DNA of 64,000 bases from Pseudovirgaria hyperparasitica (taxonomy: Eukaryota; Ascomycota; Dothideomycetes; Acrospermales; Acrospermaceae), in the NCBI RefSeq assembly GCF_010093815.1, contig NW_022985568.1, positions 498,449 to 562,448 of the forward strand, in the 5' to 3' direction. Position numbers and translations under genes: made by a program. Below the pieces are notes generated by a model. The model had not been told where the DNA came from. It did not search any database and saw only the letters and a list, made by a program, of their open reading frames with translations. Below, one piece after another: positions 35,991 through 52,792 of the stretch. Numbering within the stretch: position 1 is the stretch's first letter; each line of letters starts with the position of its first letter.

Positions 35991-36960
35991 GTACAGGCCA
36001 AATTTTGATCTGGAAATCGAAGTATTGGAGAGAAGAGGGAAAGATGCTGTGGTTATCCAAGCGTGCAGTTGAGCAGGAACGGGGGCTCTCTGTCTTTGTC
36101 GGATTATAGCATGTTGTCGAGACAATTTGAATGTCCTTAGGAGTATTGGGGGTAAGCCGCGAGACGCGTAAGAAAAGCAGCAACACCCACAGCCGATGGT
36201 TGCCGCGCCAAAAGGAAGATATGAGTGAGTGGGAGTGAATGAGATGGAGAGCGCGCAATACAAACTTGACGTTTCTCTGGGGTTTGAGGGTGGCAGAAGC
36301 TTGGAAAGACGCGAAATGTGGCTTCCAAGGAAAGAGCGATGGAGTGTGGGGGCGCTTGCAAGCTCCGTGGGGTGAAAATTAAGTAAAACTGTCCAGGTGG
36401 GAAAGAGCAAAGGGATGTTTGACGAATTAAGACAGTACGGAAGGAAATGTTGAGGCCAGCAGAATCTCAGGGCCAAATGAGAATCAGTAGAGACTGTTGG
36501 AGACCTCGGAAGAGAGTGTTGATGAAGTTAGAGAGGTCACTGTTTACACGACGAAAGACGTTCGGGTGCAAGTAAGGGAGAACGGCGATTGCTTTCGTTG
36601 CTCGTTGCTCGTTGCTGCGGCGGTCGACGGTCGGCGTTCGGCTGAATCTCACGTGGAGACGCGTCGTGTTGGTGTTGGTGTCGAAAGTCGAATGCCAAGA
36701 AACCCACGATCTGAGCGATGGGCAGTAAGGAACGTATAGTATTATATGAAATAAAACTCGAGCAAAAACAGCACGTTTGGCGTAAAGGAATGTAAGACGC
36801 GTGAGAGAGAAGAATAGACAAAAGGGAGAAAAGAAAAGGTCGGTCTTGTGTCACGGAAGAAGGATGATTTTTGAATCTCACTGGCCTCTCAATCTCAATT
36901 TTCGACAAAATGCTCCGACAGCATCGCCCAATTTCGCTCCTGCGACCTGCATCAATCCTC
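35991..36960 (-). promoter_or_regulatory. ATG-depleted probable 5' leader of the kinase gene
   Basis: Read in the sense direction (minus strand), no ATG occurs between about 36920 and 36112, roughly 810 bases. A minimal two-codon uORF (ATG CTA TAA, 36112-36104) and the nine-residue uORF come next, then the main start. At ordinary composition about 12 ATGs would be expected. The stretch is also C/T-rich in the sense direction, like other fungal leaders. The transcription start is not visible. Confidence 0.5.
36104..36112 (-). promoter_or_regulatory. Minimal uORF in the kinase leader
   Basis: ATG CTA TAA on the minus strand encodes Met-Leu then stop. Together with the uORF at 35961-35990 it is one of only two ATGs in about 930 bases upstream of the kinase. 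Confidence 0.35.
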
Positions 36961-44625: not shown

Positions 44626-46197
44626 CATTGCAGTTTCCCGACTCCTTCCCGGCGTACCATGACACAAAAATGCAACATATTATCCCATTATCCATTGGTT
44701 CACCCGTTCCGAGCAAGACATCTTTGTCATGTCCATGACCAGAAGAAGCCAACGCTGGAGGTCTTGGACCCCAAGGATTTGAAGACATTTTATGTTGCCA
44801 AGCAATGCCTCGTGCGCTGCCTGTTGCTCGGTGGAGGAGATGGCGACGGGTGGGTGCGATTGTGGCTGTTTGGCGAACACCTCTGCCCGTGGCGTGGACA
44901 GTTTTGACCATAATGCATACATACATAGTGCCATTGGAACTGACTTTCATGCCCCCACTGCAAGCCAAATCTATAGCCACCTAGTAGGACTGACAAGAGA
45001 CTAGCATTTTATTCGTACTGTATTATCCATAAATAATATAATATATCAGAACTCAAACATCTGACGTGGTTGGAATGGATGGATGTCTCTCTCTCTCTCG
45101 TCAGAGCTCTCACTAAACGAGAGAGAATGCACATGGGGACCTTTGCTCATTCATCTCACCACCCCCCTCCCCTTGCCCTAGGGCCTGTTGCCGCCATACC
45201 ATACCCACGTGGAACGCTGGACAAAACAGCAGGGCACTCACACGACTGGGCGATACTGTAAGTGCGAGATCACCAATGAGATCGGCAGCGTGCAGAGAGT
45301 GCGCCAACCAGATGCTGCAGCATTTGGTGCAATCAGCAGCATCTTCTCATCCTGTCGCAGCTTCTGGTCGCACCGTAATGTTGGATAATTAAAATGATCC
45401 ATACCCTTTTTCTTCTTTCCCTGGTGGCCGGTGAGATGTATCCCTGGCCGCCGCACGCACGCACAAACGAACGAGCGAACGAGCACGCAAGCAGGCATGG
45501 ACACAGGGCAGGGACAAGAGTCAAGCGCGCGCGCTCCAGATAGAGAATATTGAGCACATGGTCTCTGGATGACGATGACGAGATGTGATTAGTCTCATGG
45601 GGGCGCGTGTGTCTGGTTGAGTGAGAGGACGCAGCCTGCCGCTTGTCCCTGGGCCTGCCTTGGACGCAGGATTGGAGCGTCAGAGTGTTCGCTCCAACAA
45701 GGCAGCGCAGCGGTCGAGGAGACAAAACAGGAATAAGTCATCTGTCTTAGTTCCTGGGTGGTGCTGTTGTTGGTTTCCCTGGGACCTCACCGACCCATGG
45801 TTTAGGAGAGGAGAGGGAGGAGAGCTCGGCCGAGGTGTGTGCTCGCTTACCATACTATACATGGCTGGGTGGATTCAAAAGTCTCGTATTCGCTGGACCA
45901 TGCGCGTTCCCGAGTAGGAACCATAGAGATTAGAGGTTAAGTACAGATAGACCTGACGCGCTTCTCTGCTCTCTGCACACACACTACGGAGGATTCGTAG
46001 CGGCTCAGTCAGCTGTCCAATAGAGCGCTTCTTCTTCTTCCAATCTTCCCCTTCTGGCACACGACTGCATGCAATAGTCTACAGCGCCGATGCAGGTGCC
46101 AGGCGTTCTGCTACACCTTTCAACTGCGCCGCCATCGCTTCCAGGCTTTCTGATGTTTCAGAGGCTTCAGCAGAAGAAGAAAGAGTGAGAGATGATG

Positions 46198-46250
46198 GTG
46201 TGCGTGTGTGTATGTATGTACGTATGTAGGTATGTGTGTGTGTGGAGAAC
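46198..46250 (+). repeat. GTGT/GTAT microsatellite patch
   Basis: Imperfect GTGT, GTAT and GTAC tetranucleotides run for about 50 bases. Similar patches recur at about 9590-9620, 37880-37905, 38735-38760, 45450-45495 and 47815-47840. Confidence 0.65.
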
Positions 46251-48070
46251 GGCACATGCGAGTGTGTTTCAGGCTATTAGGTCGCTCAAGCGCCTGCGAT
46301 AGGAGGATGCATGCCTTGGGTTGATTGATTGACGAAGACGAGAACCCAATTCAAAAACAAGCACCGTCCAACCGTCGACCAAGTCCACACTTCCACACTA
46401 TCACAACTCCACTCCCGTTCCCCACGACGCCAATCCCGAGTTGAGAGTACGCCGGCCGGACTCTCTGCTTGCTGGATCTTAGGGGGGGACCTCTGACTGG
46501 CTGTAGCGTTCGGGCGGTATCGGGCTTAGCGTCCGTTTCGCTAAAGGAGAAAATCCCAATTCCCAGAAGTGGATCTCTGTGCTGGATCAAGATTCAAAAC
46601 GATGATGAATGATGATTGATGTTGCCAGTGCGCGTGTGTGCGTAGCTATTCCACTCTCTGCGCCATCCGCTCGGGTCGGGTCAAAACTCCCCGGGACAGG
46701 GAACGGCCTGCTTGATGCTGGAGGCGAAAGACCGTCCTGTGATATTTCGAAAAGAATGCAGAAGAGAAACAGTAGCCACAACAAGAAGATGAAGAAGAGG
46801 ACGAAGTTAGCTTAGAGGTAATTAGCAACAGCAACAGCAAGCACAAGATGGGCTGAATGACGATCGACTATCTTTAGCATAGCCACTATCTGTAGGCAGT
46901 TCACAGGTACAGACAGTATTATGCGATGTGACTACAGTACGTGCTCTGGCACCTCCCGCTTCCTGGCCACCGGCAGTGCCCTGTTTAGCTTGTAGGAGAT
47001 TTAATGATGATTATCCGTGTGCATTTCCGATCCCTAAGTCTCTGTATGCCTTCGGCTTTTCCGCCTTGCTTAACCAAGCATATGCAGTAGGTACGTACTC
47101 CGGCCAGAAAACCCCCCAGGTTCTCTCTCTCTCTCTCTACGTACAGGGCCTTGTGATCCGTAGCGAGCAGTTATTGTCCCTTTCACTAGTATAATTAGCA
47201 CAACACACAGCGCTTTGTCAGAGAAAGCTAGGTAGGGGCCAGCCGCCAAGCGGATAGGGCAATAGTATACCAAGCATTGTGGATTGTGCAAAGTTTGGAG
47301 CCGAGAATGGCCTCAGCGCTCCCTTCAAGCCCATCCCGCACGCCAACGACGTCTTCTGGGGCCCAACAGAGATGCACTGACAGGGTCACAGGGCCTAGGG
47401 CGTGAGAAGAGTCAGGGATTCTGACCAGACTTGCAGCTGCTGCTGGTCGCCTGCCTGCCTGCCATCCACTCACCGGGGGCCTGGAGCGAGATCAGGGCCA
47501 TGTCCTTGTCTTTGTTGCCCCTGCCTTGCAATCGTGCACTCACTCATCAGCTGTGATGGGTTCTGCTCCTGAGTCCTGGGCTCCTGTGGCAGCTGGGTTG
47601 CCAGCAGTCCAGGATTGCAGGAGAGGGATTCCCGGTATTGCTATCCGCGATACGCAGATCCAGATGGGAGGTGTATCTGATAGTGTAAGTCAAGTCAGTG
47701 TGTAGTAACCCAGTCGCATGGCAGCCCTGTATCTCACTCAGCATCGTGACTATGTGGTTGTCGGTGCCAATTCAAGGAGCCTTGATGTCTCTCTCCGGGC
47801 TACGTAGTAGTATGTATGTATGTACAGTACGTACCTATGTTTTGTGCACACAAGGAACAAGCAGCAAATGTGCCGTGCACACCAGCTACCAACTACCAGT
47901 ACCGCCCACCGCCAGCAGCCCAGCAGCCAACCCAGCGGCTGCCCGCCAGCCAAACCGCCCGCCGCTGCAACCCCTGACTGACATAACGACATACAGTACA
48001 ACACACCCACACACTCCCTTTGCAACTCCAACATCCTTCGCTTTACCGCCCTCTGCGCGCCGACGCATAT

Positions 48071-49730
48071 ATGCGCGTTCTTCATTGGTAGCAAAAGCTA
48101 TCGAACTTGTCCTGTCTTGTCTTAATAGCTACTACAACAACAGCAGCAACAATCCATTTGTTCTTTTGTGGGAGAAGGAAAGCTGTAATCCGCCCCCCCC
48201 TTGTCTCCAGGACCCCCGCTACGAGTGAGTGAGGAGGTTCGTCTTCCCACACCTCATTACTCACGAGTTTCCAATCTCTGCATCCATTAATTAGTTTGAG
48301 AAAAGACAAAAAGTCGCCTGGCCGTGTTCTCGTTTACCATATCCGCTTGCGTCAAAGTGTAGCTGAGTAGCCTGGCTCGTCTGGCTCTCTGCTTCGGTCG
48401 AGCTACCGCTTGGCCCCAACTCTCCGTCCGATCCAGATCACATCAGAAGCAACGCTTGGACAAAGACCCTCTACGTATCTATGCACACTATACCCCCCTC
48501 CCCCCCCCTCTATTCCATTCCGATTCACTTCTGCCAGTAAGCCACGCGAATCCCCAAACCTGACCGATCCTAAGCTGGCTACATATACGTGACGCCTACC
48601 ACACACACATACACATATACACACACACATATCTCTCCACTCACACTCAGACAAAGTGAAAGCCTTCCGTGTGTGGTCTCAGAGTCAAGTCCAGTCCAGC
48701 CTTTTCGCCTCCGCCTCCCGTTACTTGAAAGGATCGACAGCAAGCCGACGCCCGCCTTTCCCGGCTCTTCATCTTGGATATCAAAACAACAACACCTCTG
48801 CTCGACTTGATCGTCATATTCACTTGGACTCCTAGTTCCGGTCATCATTGTCAGTCTAAAGGATATCAAGCATCTGCCACTCCAACATCCATACGCAGTT
48901 CCAACAGCCGACCATATACCCCACCTCTACGCCCTCTCATCTCTCACACGTTACATATTCATATCCTAGACCTTAACACCATCAACTCTGTGCTGATCTC
49001 CTGGAATATCTTCACCTCTACCGGAATCCCAATCTTGCATAGCTTCGTGTCACCAAAGCACAACAGCTTGCACTACCCAAGATCTTGGGATCTCCCGAAC
49101 CTGCTCTCTTTCATCGCTGGAATTGCTGTGGTAGTACTACGGCCTCTCCCGTCCTTCTTGCACTGTACGTCCTTGCTTTCGCTTTTCGTCCACTGGTTTT
49201 TCGCGTTCACTAAGACTTTCTAGCAATTCTTTGGCAAAGCGTGCATTTGTGCTCACCACGCCTTCCCATTCCGCGCAGGTACAGATCATTCGCCGACCTA
49301 TCTGTCTTCGCTTTGCCAGTCTGCGATAGAGCAATCATCTTCCAGCGTTACAGTCGCCCAATTCGGACCGCTATTCTATTGTCCAGCCAGTTCTCCTCGC
49401 CGAGTCTTCTGTTCCCGTCATCTTCGACAGACAAAGAAATCCGCAAACTAGTCTACTTACTTTGACTCTTAGCTGAAGTCAAGGCTTTAATTCGCACCTT
49501 CGAATCTACCCCCGACAACGCGTTCGACTAGAAAAGTCACTCAACGACCATCCAATTCCATAGACGTTTTGTTGTGGTCCGAGATTGCCTTTTGAAACCT
49601 CTTCCGTTCGCGAGCCGTCTTCCTTCCAGACGGGCTCTTTCCATCTTCTATTGATCCGAACCGGCCAACAGGCCTTTATCGAGAAACAACCGGCACCGTG
49701 GCGGCAGCCGTGGCTCTTCCTCATCATCAG
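48071..49730 (+). promoter_or_regulatory. ATG-purged probable 5' leader of the FlbC-like gene
   Basis: I read each line of this stretch for ATG on the plus strand. From 48074 to 49730 there is only one, at 48481, and the last 1,247 bases before the start codon have none. Around 19 would be expected at even base composition. The segment is C/T-rich on the sense strand, like other fungal leaders. This pattern is best explained by a long transcribed leader under selection against upstream start codons. It also supports ATG 49731 as the true start. The transcription start could lie anywhere from about 48.1 to 48.5 kb, or later. Confidence 0.6.
48481..48540 (+). promoter_or_regulatory. Single 19-residue uORF at the far end of the FlbC-like leader
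   Basis: The ATG at 48481 opens a 19-codon frame that is rich in proline and ends in TAA at 48538-48540. It is the only ATG in about 1.65 kb. It may be a true uORF or may lie just upstream of the transcription start. Confidence 0.4.
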
Positions 49731-51133
49731 ATGCACGGGGGACCGGATCCCTTGGGGGCGCCCTCAAGCTTCACAGCCAGACGACCAAACGCGTCGAATC
49801 TACCAAACTTCGAACTTCCCCCTCCTCCACTTTCACAATTCAACAAGATCAACCCGTACGGCTCCATAACATCTTCTCAGGCTACCCCAGCCATCGGAAC
49901 GACAGCCAGCGTCGGTAATCTCCTGACACCGCCAAGTAACGTACCTGGAGACGGTCTCAGCCCAGTCTCAACTGGCGTTACGAGCAATAGCTCAGGAGGC
50001 TCGGCACAAGCTATCGGGCCATATACTCACCACTATTGGCCGTCACCGCAGTCGCAAGGACATCAGTCGTATGGTGGATTCCAATCAGGTCATCAGCAAT
50101 CGCAACAACATCAGCAGCCACAGCAACATCAATATCAACAACAATCACGAGGTTTGTGTACCCCAAACCCCGAACCGACTCTGCATAGGAATATGTACTT
50201 ACAGTCTCCTAAAGGGCTTCCTCCACCACCTAACGATCTCAGCCTCCCATCTTTCACATCGTCCGGATCCATGTCTGCGCCTGCGCCTCTGTCCTCGATG
50301 CCTGCCCAGCACTACCCGATGTCGAACATGATGGGCTCACAAGGACCAGTGAGCACGTCAGCACCACAACAATCACCAGTCCACGCCCAGCAAGAATTCC
50401 ACCAACAAAACCGCCAACCACAAACGCCAACATACTACCACCAACAGCAGAACACCGCGCCGCAGCAGTCACCATATCCCTACTCCAGCGGTCCTTCTCC
50501 AACACAGCAGTCTCCACTGAGCGCCGGTGGTCAGATGCATCGCATGTCGCCTGCCAACAGTGGAGCTCCAGTACCAACTCTTCAAGCACCATCACATCAC
50601 TCGCCACACCAATACCAGCAGCCATTCCGCGGATACCCTCTTCCAGGTCCTGTGCTGTCGAATGTGCAAAATCCCGGTGGTCAGCTATCGCTAGTGGGCG
50701 CGATGCAACACGGCATGATGGGCGGCTTCAACAGTGGACACGCCGCCAGCATGAGCCATATGTACGCCTCGCAACATCAGCAGCAGCAGCATCAGCCGAC
50801 AAACGACCGGCCGTTCAAGTGCGATCAATGCCCACAGAGTTTCAACCGGAATCACGATCTGAAGCGCCATAAGCGGATCCATCTGGCCGTTAAGCCGTTC
50901 CCTTGTGGACACTGTGATAAGAGCTTCTCTCGCAAGGATGCGTTGAAGGTTAGTACTACTCTGATTATACATACCTTTTTCCATGAGCCTTTAGCTGACT
51001 GATTTTTAAACAGCGACATATCCTCGTTAAGGGATGCGGCAAAGCCTCTGCCGAGGGCGCAAAAGACGACGAAGCCAACCACTCGCCTAAGGCCCTGTCC
51101 ACGGGCGCTGACAGTCACGACGGCAAGCGCTAA
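49731..51133 (+). CDS. flbC: C2H2 zinc-finger transcription factor, FlbC-like
   Basis: Two exons, 49731-50948 and 51014-51133, encode 445 residues. The intron (GTTAGT, GCTGAC, ACAG) splits the second finger, right before RHILVKGCGK. Residues 1-355 are Gln/His/Pro/Ser-rich and probably form an activation region. Two tandem fingers lie near 362-416: FKCDQCPQSFNRNHDLKRH and FPCGHCDKSFSRKDALKRH. The last ligand of the second finger is apparently Cys (HILVKGC), a C2HC form. The fingers resemble Aspergillus FlbC, an activator of the conidiation regulator brlA; this name rests on recall of the finger sequence. The frame extends to GTG 49698, but ATG 49731 is the first ATG in over 1.2 kb. Confidence 0.8.
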
Positions 51134-52792
51134 GCGACCTTGGCGTACATCGCTCTCGATAGATCCATCCGCACCACTCTAAACACATCACCCCGACTTT
51201 GTATTACTTTATATATACCCCTTTTTGCTTCGTATTCTTCCCTTCTCTGCTTATATGATTCATCCCACCCGGGCACACCAACAACTTACACATTTTGTTG
51301 GTTTACTAAGGAAGGAGGGGGGCTTTTTCCAATTGGACACACGTGGCGTTACTGGTCTTATATCAAATTTATTATTATTTTGGTTTCAAAACATTCCTCA
51401 GTCATCGCATCGGCGGGGTTGGAAGGGGGCCAAGGGTTTGTCGCGGATATATACCTACATGATTGTTGTAGCCTCCCTGGTCTTTTTTTCAGGGAGGTTT
51501 TTTGTATTGCGAATCATGGGGTGGAGGAAAAACTGGTTTTTCTTGGGCCTTTCCTTGGAGGGCGTTTCTGTTGTTTCTTGGGAGAGAGTTTGAAGAGCAG
51601 CATCAACAGCACATGCTTGGGCGCGGCCGAGTGTGCAGTGTGTGCAGTGTGTTTGTATGTCTTCGTCTGTCACACAAATAGTTTTGCGGTATGGGAGGAA
51701 CGAGGGACTTGGAATTGGACCCACTGAGACACATCAGTTATTTCGGTGGTTGTGGATTTGGGTGGATATAGTGAGCGGCAGCGGATACACATTTTTGTTT
51801 ACACATACACGAGGAATATGAATATCAATGTATTGACTATCTGGTTGTTCGGATACACACTACCTACCTGACTACTACCTGCTACATACTCTACCTAACC
51901 TACCTAACCTACTTAATGCCTACGTACCTACCATTACCTGCCCTATGACGGCTTGGTCTGCTTGTTATTGTGATGTCGTTGTTGACGACGGTGCTACTTG
52001 CTTTGCTGGCTGGCTTGCTTAGTGGTCGATGGTCGATGTACATGTCTAGACGCACAGGTTTTATAGTGCTTCGCCTACTCGTTAGTGTTTATTACCAGTA
52101 AACTTCCTACGATACAGTGCGTGATACGTGGACTTGTGCAGCTAGGACCTACTAGTACCAAGTTGAGTAGGTAAGTAGGCAATCAGTCAATCCTCCCATC
52201 CCACACCATGTACTTGTAGTATGTTACATTTTCGATCGATGGACTCGAGGTTAGATTCGGTGTGTAGGCAGGGAGGTGCTAGGCTAGTCAAAGCTTTTTT
52301 TTTTCCTCTTAATTACTACTGCTCAGCTCGTCGGCGGTTTTTTTCTTCCGCGAGGGGGAAGAGGGGTAGTGCTCGTTTTTGTCCGAGGCGCAGCTTGGGT
52401 ACATACAGTTGTAGGTACTGTATGTAGGAGTCTCGGGGTTTTATTCGTTGTTTAGTTCCTTGGTTGATTGGTTGATTGACAGGCGTGCTGAAAGGCCGAT
52501 ATCGCGCTGTTAGGTGGACAAGACTGTACAAGCATGAATTGAAAGCGATTACATATCGATATATAGAAGTGGATACGTCAGCTCGACTGCAGGGCTCTGT
52601 TACTTACGACGTGCTGACCTCAGAGTATCGAGCCTGAAGCTAGAATGGCTATCCTGGGACAGCTCCCTGATTTCGAGACTCGATGACCCTGGACAATACA
52701 ATCAAATTGCACAATGCATTACTCTTTCGTAATTCTAGACCTGATACGATGACGAAACTATAATAAAATATATCTTGAATGACTTACCCAGC
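51134..52792. other. Convergent 3' region with TACC-type repeats
   Basis: The 1.66 kb between the FlbC-like and amidohydrolase stop codons contains no convincing gene. From 51860 to 51945 it is made of imperfect CTAC/CTAACC units, and T-runs occur near 52295 and 52340. These are probably 3' untranslated and spacer DNA. Confidence 0.5.
51857..51945 (+). repeat. CTAC/CTAACC imperfect microsatellite
   Basis: Units of CTAC, CTAACC and TACC repeat over about 90 bases. They are not the telomeric CCCTAA unit, so no telomere relic is inferred. Confidence 0.65.

Follow-up and report, generated by a model that had tools for sequence, protein, structure and literature searches.

A 1247-base stretch free of ATG before an FlbC-like regulator gene of Pseudovirgaria hyperparasitica, a probable AUG-cleared 5' leader

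In the genome of the ascomycete Pseudovirgaria hyperparasitica, we found 1247 consecutive bases (48484-49730) without a single ATG on the plus strand, directly upstream of a gene encoding a zinc finger regulator, and this absence is real and beyond chance. The DNA analysed is a stretch of 64,000 nucleotides of contig NW_022985568.1, called the window below, and all positions without a locus name are counted from its first letter. We regard it as likely that the ATG-free stretch, probably together with some hundred bases before it, represents the transcribed 5' leader of this regulator, from which AUG was cleared by selection; transcription of the stretch, its start site, scanning as the cause and any regulatory role are what we infer from the DNA. 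We call the gene FlbC-like, a putative name after FlbC, the developmental C2H2 regulator of Aspergillus, that stems from a preliminary description of the sequence and from the resemblance of the finger region.

Counts, shuffles and strand specificity

48484..49730, plus strand: probable 5' leader of the FlbC-like gene, free of ATG (0 ATG against 10.7 expected; CAT 29 against 28.3; single copy)

The plus-strand ATGs flanking the stretch are found at 48071, 48481, 49731 and 50071, so that none lies in 48484-49730, as the preliminary description had claimed; it had also rightly named 49731 as the first ATG reached, and this ATG, where the run closes, is the earliest one in the FlbC-like frame. 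Its estimate of about 19 ATGs expected was too high, as this is the value of a uniform 1/64 and the stretch is G-poor. With 61% pyrimidine, a C-rich composition and only 16.5% G, the stretch has a lower expectation because of its scarce G, and its own dinucleotides give 10.7. The shuffle comparison proposed earlier was carried out, and not one of 5000 dinucleotide-preserving shuffles of the stretch was without ATG (mean 10.8, sd 2.7, minimum 3). So was the antisense comparison, in which CAT, the ATG of the other strand, was seen 29 times with 28.3 expected. No other of the 64 trinucleotides is as strongly depleted in the stretch as ATG and, since CAT is normal, the depletion is specific to this word and to the sense strand of the gene at 49731.

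The 1250-base spacing between the two ATGs is the longest ATG gap on either strand of the window, followed by gaps of 812 (minus strand) and 563 bases. When the whole window was shuffled 300 times, a procedure that levels out local composition, the longest gap on either strand averaged 417 bases and never exceeded 891. For comparison with the genome (35 Mb in 59 contigs), 20 stretches of 10 kb each were sampled systematically. A RIP-mutated look was noted at four of these 20 loci (L009, L014, L020 and L025), with TpA/ApT of 1.25-1.65 and GC of 26-41%. Eight sampled gaps exceed 1250 bases, all of them in L009, L014 and L025 and each with only 0-5 CAT; leaving aside the four RIP-like loci, the longest sampled gap has 693 bases. 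The stretch, which is single copy in the genome, holds the longest ATG gap on either strand of the 64-kb window and of the 160 kb in the 16 non-RIP sample loci. It is not unique, as the preliminary description had implied: a run of 1259 bases precedes a STE12-family gene, and gaps in RIP-like repeats reach 3877 bases.

The gene, its start codon and the beginning of the low-ATG stretch

49731..50948, plus strand: exon 1 of the FlbC-like C2H2 gene from its first ATG, context CATCAG ATG C (C at -3)
50949..51013, plus strand: intron GTTAGT ... ACAG within the zinc-finger region, whose removal carries the frame on to a stop
51014..51133, plus strand: exon 2, ending KRHILVKGCGK...GKR and then TAA
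49593..49595, plus strand: TGA in frame with the FlbC-like ORF, bounding any contiguous N-terminal extension
49698..49700, plus strand: in-frame GTG, context GGCACC GTG G (A at -3, G at +4), a possible non-AUG start that would add 11 residues

Read from the ATG at 49731, the FlbC-like protein has 445 amino acids and carries two C-terminal C2H2 fingers above the Pfam cut-off, which marks the downstream gene as a regulator; its PDB matches are generic zinc fingers, and no relatives were confirmed in collections of viral contigs, genome contigs and plasmids (no fungal set among them). In-frame stops lie upstream at 49593, 49488, 49470 and 49449, and an upstream ATG start for this frame requires an intron.

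The context of the ATG at 49731 is weak. Among 15 other start contexts (9 from the window, 6 from regulator genes), C at -3 does not occur, and 13 of the 15 have a purine there. The GTG at 49698, 33 bases further upstream, stands in a near-optimal context, and the 11 codons between the two (49698-49730) reach a coding score at the 26th percentile among coding windows and at the 95th among leader windows, with both training sets including flbC itself. A non-AUG start at this GTG is possible. Work on cpc-1 in Pezizomycotina rated A at -3 and G at +4 as most important for its non-AUG starts (PMC5487733). The start of the N-terminal extension of Neurospora cpc-1 is, like the GTG at 49698, an in-frame near-cognate codon that has both of these bases and precedes the main AUG; unlike the present gene, with its 11 possible additional residues, cpc-1 carries two AUG uORFs, and its conserved extension spans about 180 amino acids (PMC5487733). 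A wider reading would have FlbC made mainly from the GUG at 49698, with the weak AUG at 49731 as a leaky second start, low output behind an AUG-cleared leader of more than 1 kb, and cleared leaders as a class trait of many regulator genes; taken as a whole, we hold this combination to be doubtful.

48072..48480, plus strand: DNA into which the low-ATG stretch probably continues, as leader or core promoter (0 ATG against 3.7 expected; change point)
48481..48540, plus strand: sole small uORF, of 19 codons and with T at -3, in the context GTATCTATGC
48071..48091, plus strand: next ATG upstream, opening a 6-codon ORF close to where the low-ATG stretch is estimated to begin

The boundary at 48484 given in the preliminary description is only the base after a uORF ATG, and neither a measured boundary nor a transcript end. 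Over 48072-49730 a single ATG is found where 15.1 are expected, and a two-rate fit to 45000-49730, uncorrected for composition, places the change point at 47870, with 47820-48130 within 2 log-likelihood units. The low-ATG stretch therefore probably begins further upstream, near 47.8-48.1 kb, and the predicted leader could be up to about 1.6-1.9 kb long or could begin shortly after 48481. In Cryptococcus, uAUGs reduce translation and the mRNA level when they lie beyond 20 nt from the transcript start, and hardly do so within 20 nt (PMC7049704), for which reason the ATG at 48481 would be tolerable if transcription begins close by; this cost of uAUGs is generic and was measured in another phylum. 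Low uAUG density is described in the same source as the exception in fungi (PMC7049704), so purging is not to be expected everywhere.

Coding on either strand of this DNA was rejected, the two longest other frames near the stretch having no domain above the Pfam cut-off. For the TTG-started frame of 149 codons at 48774-49223, nothing in Pfam matches at E up to 1, and the frame at 47752-48228 has a weak match only. The repressive AUG uORFs of long-leader transcripts (LUTI-like or uORF-type) were not found in 48484-49730; the one 19-codon uORF just before it has T at -3.

Ordinary genes, enzyme genes and other regulators

None of 28 ORFs of at least 300 amino acids, a set that leaves out the RIP-like loci and the FlbC-like gene, lacks ATG in the 500 bases upstream (mean 8.3). 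The FlbC-like gene and six other regulator genes, seven picked for their gap, have 0 ATG and 6-12 CAT in the same interval; as this leader set was chosen for ATG absence, its zero counts are no test, and only CAT and the closing point are. In 45 ORFs of at least 250 amino acids (window and 20 loci, the FlbC-like ORF included), the distance between the first ATG and the one preceding it has a median of 76 bases and a 95th percentile of 233; the longest distance after that of the FlbC-like gene is 387. The ordinary start codon was here taken as the first ATG of the open frame, which is possibly wrong where introns lie near the start. No sense gap of at least 500 bases was found in four aldehyde dehydrogenase regions (largest 246-331), and for the two of them in which the start codon was obtained the runs were 142 and 99 bases.

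Twelve upstream regions of regulator genes were fetched (STE, TEA, two KilA-N matches and the first eight listed C2H2 genes besides the window's own). In half of these (6/12), a sense ATG-free run of at least 500 bases closes at a probable start codon: 1259 bases in the STE12-family region (L030) and, at five C2H2 genes, 730 (L039), 689 (L036), 656 (L033), 629 (L035) and 530 (L037), with CAT near expectation in each run. The remaining six have longest sense gaps of 250-348 bases, and a C2H2 gene in the sampled locus L012 one of 350; an ATG-free leader is not a rule for regulators. In L033, L036 and L037 the finger match lies in frame within the ORF of the closing ATG, and in L030, L035 and L039 the link between the closing ATG and the DNA-binding match needs an assumed intron. 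The L030 peptide MYSSSHAQMAPPQQ resembles SteA starts, and L033, L035 and L039 may, to judge by their peptides, be Msn2-, CrzA- or PacC-like. Across the twelve regions the longest gap is longer on the sense than on the antisense strand (Wilcoxon p = 0.010), and the twelve sense gaps exceed those of 64 sampled 5-kb strands, 2 of which have gaps of at least 500 bases (Mann-Whitney p = 6.6e-4). The stretch before the FlbC-like gene is likely one more case of a known kind, long and perhaps extreme, and in this genome the pattern extends across the class.

Some further runs were observed in passing. One of the two sampled strands with a gap of at least 500 bases belongs to L028, where the downstream gene looks Zn2Cys6-like by eye: at L028:7390-8687 successive ATG-free runs of 604 and 693 bases are followed by an apparent, intron-split Zn2Cys6 regulator gene. 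At L021:2498-2940 (minus strand), a 442-base ATG-free run lies directly before a gene with two GATA fingers. The 812-base gap of the window (36110-36922, minus strand), with a normal CAT-side count, stops some 150 bases short of the first ATG of a gene for a protein kinase with a fungal KA1 domain, probably Hsl1/Nim1-like, and is a probable second long leader of the window. The leaders in L030 and L039 contain one Pumilio-like TGTANATA each (reached in 4 and 1 of 300 shuffles, respectively), and the flbC leader has none.

Rival readings and known long leaders

The loss of ATG from the sense strand only, a run that closes where the gene has its first ATG, and the like runs at 6 of 12 regulators make a long transcribed leader purged of start codons the best reading of this DNA, as the preliminary description had proposed; what did not hold are its 19 expected ATGs, its boundary at 48484 and the stand-alone status of the stretch. 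Ribosomes loading at the cap would scan more than 1 kb of leader to the FlbC start, and an AUG en route would produce a short uORF, lower the output of FlbC and possibly expose the transcript to nonsense-mediated decay; selection would hence have removed AUG, and from the sense strand only. A C-rich, G-poor leader that is no more structured than its composition would suit such scanning, and the predicted folding energy shows no excess structure (-261.6 compared with -260.6 in 20 shuffles, sd 8.4, z -0.12). A regulatory role could, for example, lie in slow or condition-dependent translation of a developmental regulator.

Promoter DNA that is merely G-poor and pyrimidine-rich, lacking ATG by composition and chance and with the transcript start close to 49731, would be one alternative, and the 16.5% G does halve the count first expected, the roughly 1.25 kb were picked post hoc out of the whole window, and A. 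nidulans is reported to have tight start sites with a median 5' UTR of 93 bp, under a length limit of 500 bp (PMC4046813). We nevertheless consider this account unlikely, as none of the 5000 dinucleotide shuffles lost all its ATGs, CAT is normal and runs that close at a start codon recur at other regulator genes. A true start codon in an upstream exon, the stretch being mostly one long intron, is still less probable. Donor-like sites occur at 48225, 48537, 48669 and 49165, of which the GTACGT at 49165 could mark an intron in which the absence of ATG would need another cause, a point that counts against the leader; but no donor-branch-acceptor combination was found in 48001-49731 by a fungal-type rule covering introns of 40-300 bases only, the in-frame stops would force the exon to join after 49595, and an intron offers no reason for the loss of ATG from one strand.

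Another improbable reading, to which we give the same low weight as to the intron, is that the leader works by binding a factor or by its structure (Ssd1/GUL-1, Pumilio, a riboswitch-like fold), its lack of ATG being secondary. Fungal morphogenesis genes can have their translation controlled by a long leader (PMC6034079), but here Ssd1-type motifs number 3 against 5.2 expected, Pumilio sites are absent, structure is as composition predicts, and 46000-52000 has no Rfam match at E up to 1. That RIP mutation stripped ATG from the stretch is extremely improbable. The sampled RIP-like DNA does have ATG gaps of up to 3877 bases on either strand, but RIP would strip CAT too, and CAT is normal here; the RIP indices of the single-copy stretch match those of the window (TpA/ApT 0.76 vs 0.74; (CpA+TpG)/(ApC+GpT) 1.11 vs 1.20), and a CpA/TpG loss on both strands was not found, so that composition contradicts RIP as the cause.

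No literature was found on a 5' UTR and uORFs of flbC, which is weak evidence of absence, and none on its transcription start and leader. Candida albicans has an AT-rich genome. Its 5' UTRs reach 1,170 nt in EFG1, 2,071 in CZF1, 2,978 in WOR1 and 3,041 in UME6 (PMC6034079). EFG1 resembles the AUG-cleared leader predicted here in its length, in being a morphogenesis regulator and, in strain SC5314, in the absence of an AUG uORF; it differs in belonging to a yeast of a different subphylum and in that its leader was shown to promote translation (PMC6034079). In Histoplasma, the transcripts with longer leaders include 14 putative developmental regulators (PMC4503680). The extended leaders at such genes are the likeness; these were, however, singled out because their leader length differs between cell types and, unlike an AUG-free leader, many are ribosome-occupied or show uORF-like repression in that account (PMC4503680). 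A further parallel is ste12 of T. reesei, a regulator gene whose 5' UTR of about 700 bp, without uORF or intron, was shown by RNA-seq (PMC11053031); the genome studied here has its own STE12-family gene with a 1259-base run, and the leader predicted here would be nearly double the length of that of T. reesei.

A GUG start, if true, would alter the annotated N-terminus of the FlbC-like protein. If the leader itself is real, long leaders of fungal regulators could be recognised in bare DNA by ATG-free runs that end at a start codon, and such runs would flag regulators that are likely under leader-based translational control, with flbC and the STE12-family gene as the extreme cases of this genome.
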